Assembly (NCBI GenBank): GCA_021372535.1 | Contig: JAJFUH010000037.1 | Coordinates: forward strand, 1 to 43,631 | DNA: 43,631 nucleotides | Direction: 5' to 3' | From: a bacterium | Lineage (GTDB): Bacteria; Latescibacterota; Latescibacteria; Latescibacterales; Latescibacteraceae | Part shown: positions 39,333 to 43,631 of the stretch, in pieces | How the letters are laid out: every line of letters begins with the position of its first letter | Numbering within the stretch: the stretch's first letter is position 1 | Made by a program: the position numbers and the translations under genes | Notes under the pieces: generated by a model | What the model was told of the DNA's origin: nothing | Database searches by the model: none | The model's input: only the letters and a program-made list of their open reading frames with translations

Positions 39333-39917
39333 CTATGTCGATGAGTTTGAAAAAACACCGTCGCTTACATCGTGCATATCCGGTCGCCCGGAATCGGTAA
39401 TCCTGATGAGATACTCCTTCGAGGGAATGTCCGGCACATCCCAGATGTACGAACCCGCCGGTCCGTCCGCCTCGGCCTCGATGAGCCGCCAGTTACGGCC
39501 GTTATTTGTGGAAAATTCAAGCCTGACTTTCTTAATGCCCACCGAAGTCCATCGAATGTGAATCTTCGAACCGGCGAAAATCGCTTCCCCGCCGTTGGGA
39601 TATTCGAGGTGCAGGTATACGGACGACAGTCCGGCTTCGATACGGGATTTCTTCCCCGCTTTTATTGATACCGTTAATGTGAGATTCTTATAGTCCGGGT
39701 GCGATACGGTCACAGGGAAGTTGATACCCTCCGGGATATGTTCTATCACGAAGCATCCGGCTCTGTCCGTTATGGCTGTGAGGATGTCGAGCCCCACGGG
39801 AACCGTGATGGTGGCTCCCGGCAGTATATGCTTTGTTGTATCGTCGGTTACCGTCCCGGAGAGAATACCGGCGCTCTCTTCGCTTATGACTGTTCCGGTG
39901 GAATGCGGGATGATCAT
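39333..39917 (-). CDS. Secreted carboxypeptidase-regulatory-like and beta-sandwich protein
   Basis: At least 194 residues. Residues about 15-95 are a carboxypeptidase-regulatory-like fold (AGILSGTVTDDTTKHILPGATITV, TDRAGCFVIEHIPEGINFPVTVSHPDYK). A second beta domain follows (LEYPNGGEAIFAGSKIHIRWTSVGIKKVRLEFSTNNGRNWRLIEA, then YIWDVPD), common in secreted FCB-group proteins. The ATG at 39917 leaves no signal peptide, but the open frame continues upstream through a signal-like stretch (TVIAAVVLIMIIP) to a CTG at 39983, placed 5 bases after a perfect AAGGAG. A non-ATG start is therefore likely. The stop of the upstream kinase lies only 27 bases before that CTG, so the two are probably co-transcribed. 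The 5' end is duplicated at 43343-43425. Confidence 0.7.
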   Translation of the reverse strand: MIIPHSTGTVISEESAGILSGTVTDDTTKHILPGATITVPVGLDILTAITDRAGCFVIEHIPEGINFPVTVSHPDYKNLTLTVSIKAGKKSRIEAGLSSVYLHLEYPNGGEAIFAGSKIHIRWTSVGIKKVRLEFSTNNGRNWRLIEAEADGPAGSYIWDVPDIPSKEYLIRITDSGRPDMHDVSDGVFSNSST

Positions 39918-39926
39918 GATCAGTAC

Positions 39927-40187
39927 GACTGCTGCGATTACTGTCGCTCGTGCGGAACGTATTGTGGCGTATCCTGTTATCAGAGGGACTCCTTGGTGCT
40001 TCGGGGCTGTTATGTATCGAGGACCGTTCTGACCGTACTGACCAGTTCCTTGATAGTGTAAGGTTTTGATACAAAACCCATCGCCTGCGTGTAGGTATGA
40101 ATTGTCTCGTCGCTCTGGCCGGAAGATATGATAATTTTTTTATTGCCGTTAATGGAAACCATTTCTTCGAGAAGCTCTTTACCTGAC
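39927..40187 (-). repeat. Kinase-unit duplication, copy 1 (left)
   Basis: The 3' end of the hybrid kinase (40010-40187) and the first 80 bases beyond it recur at 43343-43631. In the coding part only 1 of 178 bases differs, and that is silent; in the noncoding part about 10 of 83 differ, with a 28-base insertion in the right copy. Confidence 0.9.
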
Positions 40188-43186
40188 ATCCTGGGCATGG
40201 TGAGATCGAGGATAATCAGGTCGATCGAGTCGAGATACTTCTTGAACATTTCGAGCCCTTCAATGCCGTCACAGGCTGAAATTACCGTATATCCGTATAA
40301 TTTCAGGGCTTTCTGGGCCAGTTCCCGTACTGACTGTTCGTCCTCGACCACAAGAATCGTTTCGTTCCCTCCCATGATTCGGGCAGTCGTTTCAGTCTTT
40401 GATGTTTCTTCATGGTGGGCTTTCGGCAGGTAGAGATGAACGATGGTTCCCTTGCCCCGAGAAGACTCTATCTCCACGCAGCCGTTGTGGTTGCTGGTAA
40501 CAATATTGTACACCATGGCAAGCCCGAGCCCCTGTCCTCTCTGAGAGCTCTTATTTTTCGTCGTGAACAGCGGATCGAAAGCTCTTCGTTTAACATCATC
40601 GGTCATACCTGCTCCGTTGTCCTCGAACATGATGTGTATATACTCGCCCTCGGGCAGCCCGGTCTTGTCACGTTTCTTTGAACGATACCGGTCGGCGCTG
40701 ATTTTTATATAGTCGCCCTGACGGACTCCCCGTTCTTCAATGGCCTGAACGGCATTGGTTCCCAGATTGAGAAGCACCTGGTGCAGGGCATCGGCATTTC
40801 CGTGAATATAATACTGCCCCTGACTTATCTCGTTTTTCTTCTCGATGAGCCGGTCGGTGGTTCTCGAAAGAATATTGAACACTTCCTGAGCTACTTCACA
40901 TATATCGACAGAGGTTTTCTGGGAAACCGGGCTTTTTGACAGCGTTTGAATCTCCCTGATCAGGCTGGCTGCACGACTGCATGATTTCAGCGATTCGTCG
41001 ATGTAATTCTTCTGTGATTCTGTCAGGGATGCGGTGTCGAGTTTAAGCAGATCTATATATCCCATGATGCCGGCGAGCAGATTATTGAAATCGTGCGCGA
41101 TACCTCCCGCAAGCGTTCCCAGTGAATCGATGCGCTGACGTCTCTGGAGCTGCTCTTCGAGGAGTTTCCGCTCGGTAATATCCTGTATGAAGCCGGTGAC
41201 CTTTATCGGGGCGCCGTTTTCATCCCTCACCAGTTCCGCCAGAGAATGGACGATCACTGTCCTGCCGTCATCTTTTCGGCGAATCTCATATTCCAGGTCA
41301 TACACCCTGTTCTCTTTAATAAGATTTTCCAAGGCATTATGTACTTTCACAGCATTCAGAATACATGATTCAGTTTCTTCCAAAGACAGGTATTCGGTGG
41401 TTCGGGGTATTCCAAAAATTCTGAATGCCTCTTCGGAACCCCATATTTTATTTGTTGCGATATCGTATTCCCAGTTTCCCAGTTTGGCTGCTATCTGGGT
41501 TTTTTTGAGACGCTCTTCACTTTCACGCAGATCAGTTTCGGCTTTTCTGCGATCGGTGATATCGCGGTAATTACCCATAATTCCCTTGACATGGGGATTG
41601 TCCATCAGATTGACCCCTGTCAATTCAATGAATTTATATGATCCATCCTTGCAGAGATACCTGCACTGTAACGTTCTGGTCAATCCCGGCTCCCGGAGTA
41701 ATTCCAAAAACTGCTGTTTCACGTACTCCGTATCATTTGGGTGTATGACACTGAAACCGTCTGTTCCGATCAGTTCCTCGGGATCCCACCCGAAATGAAT
41801 ATATATATTGGGGCTTTTATACTGTATAATACCGTTTATGTCCATAATGACAATAACATCCGATATATTGGAAATCAACGTCCGGAATTTCTTTTCGCTT
41901 TCACGCAGGTCATTTTCTGCTTTTATTCTCTGGCCGATCATATGGTTTGCCGAATGGGCGAGCTGTTTGAATTCCTGAAAGTTGAGCTTGTTTTCGTCAA
42001 TTTCGATGGATTTTGTTGTGGCGGTAGCGAAAAATGTGAAAAAAACATCGAAGTGTTTCCGAACGGTGTTTGAAGATATTTTTGAAATAACAAAAATCAC
42101 CCCGATGAGCGCTACCATAATAAAAAGAATTTTATTGACATCGTTTTTGATCCGTACCAGCAGCTTGGATCGCTGGTTTGCTATAACCCCTTCTATATCA
42201 TCGACATAAACACCTGCGCCGAACATCCATTCCCAGTCCTTTATGCCCTTGACAAATGAAATTTTCGGAGAGAGTGTGCCGGTGGCCGGTTTGTTCCATA
42301 CATAATGAATATAATCGCCACTGGGATTCATTGCTGCTTTGCGTTCCTCCTGTATAACTTTAACACCGTTTGGGTCCTCCATCTCCCATATATTTACTCC
42401 GATGAGTTCTCTTTGTGTATCATTCATAAGGGTAATCCCATCGAAGCTGACAACAAAAATATAACCGTTATCGCCGAACCGTATTTTTGCGATCCTCTGT
42501 AAAACCTCTTTTTGGATGTCCTTCTCCACGTCATCCGGATATTCCCCGGTTCCGATAAAAAGGTTGAGGGGTTCAAAATGCTTTATATAGGTAATTTTAG
42601 GATAATCATTACCTTTTATATTCGGTTTCGTCCAGGTATACTGATAAAATCCTTCTCCTCTTGTCTCAACTATTTCTATCATGTCGCGGATAATATATTT
42701 TCCCTGCGTATCCTGCATATCGAGCAGGTTTCTGCCTTCCATTTCCGGTCTGTCGGCAAACAGCACTTCGGTTCCATTCATTGACGTGGCGAAATAATAT
42801 CCTCTGCCATCATTGAACCGTATAACGCGCAAAGTATCCTTGATCATTTTCACGATTTCTGCGTTCGTTTTTTTACCGGCATTTTCTTCATAGATATGAT
42901 TGGCAATACTGTGTGCTTCAAGAACCCGTTCCCGGATGGTTTCTTTGAGCCTGATTTCAGTCTGGGACCTCATATAGTCAATGTAATCCGAAACTTTATC
43001 GACTTCATTTTTAATTAATGATTTCTGAGTTTCAATATAATTTTGCCGCAACTTGTCCGATTCCTTCTTGAAGACTTTATATTCCTGTGAAATCCAGAAA
43101 TATCCAAGAATAACAATCGGGATAAATGTAACCAATACCATCTTAACCAGATTATTTTGGGCTATACTGTCGTTTTTATGCACCAC
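40010..43186 (-). CDS. Hybrid sensor histidine kinase (Cache, two PAS, HisKA, HATPase, receiver)
   Basis: About 1,059 residues from GTG 43186 (AAGG 8 bases upstream; a TTG at 43243 would add 19). Numbering with the TTG start: helix 32-50; periplasmic tandem Cache domains about 55-355 (IRFNDGRGYYFATSMNG, FGDNGYIFVVSFDG, DWEWMFGAGVYVDDIE); helix about 371-390; PAS domains about 450-565 and 575-692; HisKA with phosphorylated H717 (GGIAHDFNN); ATPase with N830, DNGAGM 875-880 and GQGLGLAM from 903; receiver with D1013 (LILDLTMPRMSG), S1041 and K1060. It would sense an extracellular small molecule and pass phosphate to its own receiver, then to a partner. No HPt or output domain is present. A second copy of its end lies upstream. 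The downstream gene at 39333 is close and co-directional. Confidence 0.93.
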   Translation of the reverse strand: MVHKNDSIAQNNLVKMVLVTFIPIVILGYFWISQEYKVFKKESDKLRQNYIETQKSLIKNEVDKVSDYIDYMRSQTEIRLKETIRERVLEAHSIANHIYEENAGKKTNAEIVKMIKDTLRVIRFNDGRGYYFATSMNGTEVLFADRPEMEGRNLLDMQDTQGKYIIRDMIEIVETRGEGFYQYTWTKPNIKGNDYPKITYIKHFEPLNLFIGTGEYPDDVEKDIQKEVLQRIAKIRFGDNGYIFVVSFDGITLMNDTQRELIGVNIWEMEDPNGVKVIQEERKAAMNPSGDYIHYVWNKPATGTLSPKISFVKGIKDWEWMFGAGVYVDDIEGVIANQRSKLLVRIKNDVNKILFIMVALIGVIFVISKISSNTVRKHFDVFFTFFATATTKSIEIDENKLNFQEFKQLAHSANHMIGQRIKAENDLRESEKKFRTLISNISDVIVIMDINGIIQYKSPNIYIHFGWDPEELIGTDGFSVIHPNDTEYVKQQFLELLREPGLTRTLQCRYLCKDGSYKFIELTGVNLMDNPHVKGIMGNYRDITDRRKAETDLRESEERLKKTQIAAKLGNWEYDIATNKIWGSEEAFRIFGIPRTTEYLSLEETESCILNAVKVHNALENLIKENRVYDLEYEIRRKDDGRTVIVHSLAELVRDENGAPIKVTGFIQDITERKLLEEQLQRRQRIDSLGTLAGGIAHDFNNLLAGIMGYIDLLKLDTASLTESQKNYIDESLKSCSRAASLIREIQTLSKSPVSQKTSVDICEVAQEVFNILSRTTDRLIEKKNEISQGQYYIHGNADALHQVLLNLGTNAVQAIEERGVRQGDYIKISADRYRSKKRDKTGLPEGEYIHIMFEDNGAGMTDDVKRRAFDPLFTTKNKSSQRGQGLGLAMVYNIVTSNHNGCVEIESSRGKGTIVHLYLPKAHHEETSKTETTARIMGGNETILVVEDEQSVRELAQKALKLYGYTVISACDGIEGLEMFKKYLDSIDLIILDLTMPRMSGKELLEEMVSINGNKKIIISSGQSDETIHTYTQAMGFVSKPYTIKELVSTVRTVLDT

Positions 43187-43342
43187 AGGTTCAACCTTTT
43201 CAATGAAGAAGCTCCCCAATCCGTACCCCGGATAAAACTGCAAAAAAAGTATTATGTAAACTGTTGCATCAAAGAGCCCAAAAATGATTTATAATGAAAT
43301 TACTTGAAAAATTCATTATCATATTGTTAATAATCAGCATAT

Positions 43343-43631
43343 GACTGCTGCGATTACTGTCGCTCGTATGGAATGTATTGTAGCGTATCCTGTTATCAGT
43401 AGAACTCCTCGGAGCTTCGGAGCTGTTTTTGTCATGCGGCCTGTTCGGGGCTGTTATGTATCGAGGACCGTTCTGACCGTACTGACCAGTTCCTTGATAG
43501 TGTAAGGTTTTGATACAAAACCCATCGCCTGTGTGTAGGTATGAATTGTCTCGTCGCTCTGGCCGGAAGATATGATAATTTTTTTATTGCCGTTAATGGA
43601 AACCATTTCTTCGAGAAGCTCTTTACCTGAC
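43343..43631 (-). repeat. Kinase-unit duplication, copy 2 (right)
   Basis: Matches 39927-40187 in the same orientation with a period of 3.42-3.44 kb, equal to one kinase gene plus its leader. The copy of the downstream gene's 5' end is cut at about 43343 and runs into a TGA. Confidence 0.9.
43454..43631 (-). CDS. Receiver-domain C-terminus of a second hybrid kinase (partial)
   Basis: The last 59 codons of a gene that enters from the right edge, ending TAA at 43454-43456. It encodes the end of a receiver domain (SGKELLEEMVSINGNKKIIISSG, GFVSKPYTIKELVSTV, LDT), identical in protein sequence to the end of the kinase at 40010. It lies upstream of, and in line with, that kinase, about 270 bases before its start. 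Most likely a full tandem paralogue; only this end is visible. Confidence 0.88.
   Translation of the reverse strand, partial: SGKELLEEMVSINGNKKIIISSGQSDETIHTYTQAMGFVSKPYTIKELVSTVRTVLDT

Follow-up and report, generated by a model that had tools for sequence, protein, structure and literature searches.

Genes and repeats at the locus

The window, by which we mean the whole stretch of DNA that was analysed, is the entire contig C37 (43631 bases) of a 5.35 Mb genome assembled in 236 contigs. Towards its right end it carries a hybrid histidine kinase gene (K1), the gene that follows it, and the 3' end of a second kinase copy (K2). A search of the genome with this locus led to another contig, C2 (19302 bases), which ends inside a related kinase. 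The features are:

40010..43183, minus strand: K1, a dCache_2 - PAS - PAS - HisKA - HATPase_c - REC hybrid histidine kinase (Pfam, motifs, start by alignment)
42191..43081, minus strand: sensor domain of K1 (dCache_2), with 78.5% of residues identical to the C2 kinase and a dS of 0.81
41144..41923, minus strand: the two PAS domains of K1 (dS 0.37-0.39 against the C2 kinase)
41146..41279, minus strand: stretch of K1 matching the last 134 bases of C2 (131/134 identical)
40188..41145, minus strand: HisKA, HATPase and start of REC in K1; the counterpart of these 958 bases is in neither contig
40010..40187, minus strand: receiver end of K1, found again at 43454-43631 but for one silent change
39333..39983, minus strand: intact downstream gene for a CarboxypepD_reg-like secreted protein, starting at ATG 39917 or, more likely, at CTG 39983 with a signal peptide
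43325..43350, no strand: duplication joint between downstream-gene sequence and kinase-upstream sequence homologous to that of C2, in short homology
43340..43453, minus strand: relic after K2, made up of the spacer and the beginning of the downstream gene, with a 28-base insertion beside a 12-base near-repeat; its frame stops at the joint
43454..43631, minus strand: 3' end of K2 as far as the contig reaches (58 codons plus stop), the rightmost 99 bases being identical to 40089-40187
40000-40187 and 43444-43631: direct repeat pair, 99% identical, spacing 3444
39924-40011 and 43340-43427: flank repeat pair, direct, 88% identical, spacing 3416

The open reading frame of K1 opens at TTG 43243; GTG 43183, which aligns with the first residues (MKHKNDS) of the C2 kinase, is most likely the true start as judged by this alignment. 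HisKA (PF00512), HATPase_c (PF02518) and a C-terminal receiver (PF00072) all score above the Pfam cut-off. The catalytic motifs were located as HDFNN (H717), the N and G boxes NLGTNA, DNGAGM and GQGLG, and, in the receiver, DLTMP at residue 1013 (D1013) and SKPYT. To judge from these motifs, K1 has the HisKA histidine, N and G boxes and receiver aspartate of a functional hybrid kinase. A stand-alone receiver protein encoded on the same contig (17606-18064) is 39% identical to the receiver region of K1 and is a candidate partner. Neither an Rfam nor a tRNA scan found anything in the window.

Overall, the stretch 39924-40187 recurs at 43340-43631. Its coding part shows a single silent difference per 178 bases, at site 40088/43532, and its flank shows substitutions at 11/86 aligned bases, to which the right copy adds a 28-base insertion; the contrast between coding part and flank gave p = 2.4e-5 in a Fisher test. 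The original prediction, of a kinase 3' end repeated at 3.44 kb with one silent change in 178 coding bases, agrees with these values. It was also right about the differences in the flank, although most of that sequence, there called noncoding, probably belongs to the 5' end of the downstream gene and encodes its signal peptide. The 28-base insertion (43404-43443) lies between 12-base near-identical direct repeats (TTCGGRGCTGTT), and replication slippage in one of the copies probably produced it.

The right end of C37 falls 99 bases past the last difference between the repeat copies. Since the window is an entire contig and these last 99 bases are indistinguishable from the first copy, this end is an assembly break. 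Copy identity at the receiver end was measured on 178 bases only, of which the last 99 are a sample biased towards identity, because contigs are expected to stop where copies become indistinguishable. The receiver end did not occur a third time in the genome bin.

The duplication joint

On the left side of the joint the CarboxypepD_reg-like gene is represented by its 5' end, and the intact copy of this gene follows the left kinase. On its right side lies kinase-upstream sequence that resembles the region upstream of the C2 kinase, TGATTATTAACAATATGATA being common to that region and to the window just right of the joint. The joint fuses the downstream end of the unit to its upstream end, as in a tandem duplication, and the three-way match is what a tandem duplication joined in short homology predicts. 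A joint had been placed near 43343; the likeness to the C2 upstream region on its right supports a position near 43340.

The start of the CarboxypepD_reg-like gene bears on how this region is read. CTG 39983 sits 5 bases behind AAGGAG and opens the in-frame reading (L)ITGYATIRSARATVIAAVVLIMIIPHSTG; between the kinase stop and ATG 39917 there is no in-frame ATG, GTG or TTG. The gene may start at this CTG, which would give it a good signal peptide. In the right copy the same frame meets a stop at the joint, and the right side alone is therefore a relic, just as a dead 5' piece of the downstream gene had been foreseen there.

The second kinase and contig C2

The last 2062 bases of C2 match window positions 41146-43207 with 83% DNA identity, and C2 ends inside its kinase in the orientation needed to continue C37 rightwards. 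The C2 kinase begins with MKHKNDS, and its reading frame (680 aa) runs off the end of the contig. It has dCache_2 and PAS domains as in K1, with 79% protein identity and a dN/dS of about 0.2, from which it follows that both sensors have been maintained. The 3' end of K2 adjoins K1 on C37, and we infer from position, orientation and similarity that C2 is the physical continuation of C37 and carries the 5' half of K2. The sequence expected to the right of the window was thus found, by way of this inferred join, and so were the divergent sensor domains that had been anticipated, the sensor half of C2 being 83% identical to K1 in DNA and 79% in protein.

About 958 bases of K2 (HisKA, HATPase and the receiver's first half) are absent from both C37 and C2; they are presumably near-identical to K1. 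A search of the genome for a connector holding these bases returned, for the end of C2, no match besides C2 itself and K1. One assembly k-mer of 99 behind both contig ends was considered and rejected, as it fits C37 but not C2: C2 runs on for only 7 bases after the last site at which it differs from K1, and a simple k-mer overlap would not account for this. The left end of C2 (L074:1-140) is a dispersed repeat present at no fewer than 35 places in the genome (at least 35), many of them at contig ends, and absent from the window.

Silent divergence along the kinase pair

Between K1 and the second copy, dS is 0.81 in dCache, 0.61 in the linker and 0.37-0.39 in the PAS domains (0.58 for the sensor), and at the output ends it is 0.08 (last 19 codons of C2) and 0.026 (receiver end). 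Degenerate codons were changed in 1/56 cases at the receiver end versus 130/519 in the sensor half (p = 6.6e-6); when the last 99 bases of C37 were left out, the counts were 0/24 versus 130/519 (p = 0.002). The run and trend tests, for which degenerate codons with the same amino acid in both copies were taken, showed that silent change falls along the gene (p = 5e-5) and that the longest run without silent change, 40 codons, is located at the C2 end (permutation p = 0.0009). Near-identity also covers the last ~45 codons before HisKA, and the 3' flank past the kinase stop differs between the copies by ~13%. The silent-identity tract thus exceeds chance and is bounded by the diverged sensor on one side and the diverged 3' flank on the other, both tract ends having been observed.

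The C89 paralogue (58% protein identity) was compared with the output region, and silent differences were present at 133/220 shared codons; silent sites of the output region are therefore free to change. The most diverged stretch of the pair is in PAS2, where residues 601-640 (41324-41443) show 47% protein identity over 40 residues and a dN of 0.40 between near-identical stretches. The cause could be diversifying selection, or else an exchange with another PAS domain.

Comparison with related genomes

Neither an orthologue of the dCache-PAS-PAS half nor an orthologous pair was found in 40 related genomes; a same-genus genome and the 39 others gave matches at the PAS or HisKA level only. A scan of genome contigs returned distant kinases only (≤34% identical). 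The kinase pair is lineage-specific in this sampling.

In two genomes of the same family (G001 and G002) a phage-tail-like block, not a kinase, comes after the CarboxypepD_reg-like gene, and in the window's own genome that block is on contig C20 (L076), away from the gene. In genomes of the same genus and of the same family, a phage-tail-like block (L068:5943-12999) adjoins the CarboxypepD_reg-like gene. Judged by gene order, the locus is variable between genomes and synteny is neutral on the link between C37 and C2.

Discussion

Taken together, these results are probably best explained by a tandem duplication, followed by divergence of the sensors and by gene conversion that homogenised the part of the gene running from the end of PAS2 through the receiver. 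The duplication would have produced head-to-tail hybrid histidine kinases (TM, dCache_2, TM, PAS, PAS, HisKA, HATPase, REC), its joint having formed at short homology between the kinase upstream region and the beginning of the CarboxypepD_reg-like gene downstream. The sensor halves would then have diverged under purifying selection, while gene conversion between the copies, probably repeated, would have kept that homogenised part nearly identical, as far as a comparison of two sequences can tell. As near-identity is also seen in the ~45 codons before HisKA, the tract is larger than the receiver, and probably covers the whole transmitter and receiver. The flank divergence of ~13%, set against a sensor dS of 0.58, implies either that conversion reached into the flank or that the parts have separate histories.

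The main rival to repeated conversion is a single event, in which an old, diverged sensor half was combined with one recent copy of the output half, through an exchange of domains or through recombination with a diverged allele, and no conversion continued afterwards. A sensor dS of 0.58 that far exceeds a flank divergence of ~0.14 is what parts of different age would give. Against this, silent change declines in a graded and patchy manner with identical runs at several places, not in a sharp step, and the C2 upstream region matches at the joint as well; we regard a single event as rather unlikely.

It is very unlikely that there is no second receiver end beside K1, and that the right end of C37 is an assembly artefact (a graph overlap with K1, a chimeric join or a mixture of strains). 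The genome is fragmented into 236 contigs, and the right copy stands at a contig end with its last 99 bases equal to K1; however, with 11 flank substitutions, a 28-base insertion and a silent change of its own it cannot simply reproduce the assembled K1, past the joint comes sequence shared with the upstream region of the C2 kinase, and C2 provides the expected second kinase. Purifying selection on the receiver and kinase core alone, without recombination, is hardly tenable and was rejected: output domains are in general better conserved than sensors, but here silent sites are identical too, although 60% of shared codons are silently changed relative to the C89 paralogue.

Of the two causes originally offered for the coding identity, gene conversion or strong selection on the receiver, the identity of silent sites (1/56 versus 130/519 changed) thus favours conversion and speaks against selection alone. 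The word "recent" suits the last conversion but not the duplication, given the sensor dS of 0.58.

As known for this family, signal binding by dCache would alter autophosphorylation of His717, from which phosphate would pass to Asp1013 and then to a phosphotransfer partner. With tandem duplication and gene conversion as the preferred explanation, the two kinases should read different or differently tuned periplasmic signals and deliver phosphate to the same partner or partners. The near-identical output halves, as read from sequence, suggest common partners and possibly mixed dimers.

The domain order and catalytic motifs of K1 are those of hybrid histidine kinases of the dCache-PAS-HisKA-HATPase-REC type, but here two such kinases stand in tandem and share an output half that seems homogenised. 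The same evolutionary pattern is described for Tlp2, Tlp3 and Tlp4 of Campylobacter jejuni, dCache receptors that are paralogous, have signalling domains identical to one another and differ in their sensors (~30% identity; PMC9769880). Both cases involve duplicated dCache receptors with diverged periplasmic sensors and signalling parts that are alike. The Tlp proteins are, however, chemoreceptors with dCache_1, whereas histidine kinases with dCache_2 are found here, and sensor identity is ~30% there as against 79% here; the available text of PMC9769880 does not attribute the identity to conversion. The rRNA operons of Escherichia coli are bacterial paralogues in concerted evolution by gene conversion (PMC8022953), and resemble the kinase pair in that recombination between copies of one genome keeps them alike; here homogenisation seems limited to one part of a multidomain gene, with the boundary near the sensor/transmitter border. 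No direct precedent for gene conversion between histidine-kinase paralogues was found in the open-access literature. The kinase pair is most likely a case of concerted evolution, in a pattern already known from the C. jejuni chemoreceptors.

A further idea, which we consider doubtful, is that the tandem pair acts as a sensor-diversification cassette, in which recombination restores the common transmitter-receiver and leaves the sensor halves free to diverge, the boundary at the sensor/transmitter border being held by selection. If this were true, the cell would gain new inputs without changed output specificity. Loci of this kind break assemblies, and a second copy split between contigs is readily missed. 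On the preferred explanation, the kinase pair illustrates clearly, on a small scale, how new sensors may arise without rewiring of the output, the sensing half drifting while recombination holds the signalling half in common.
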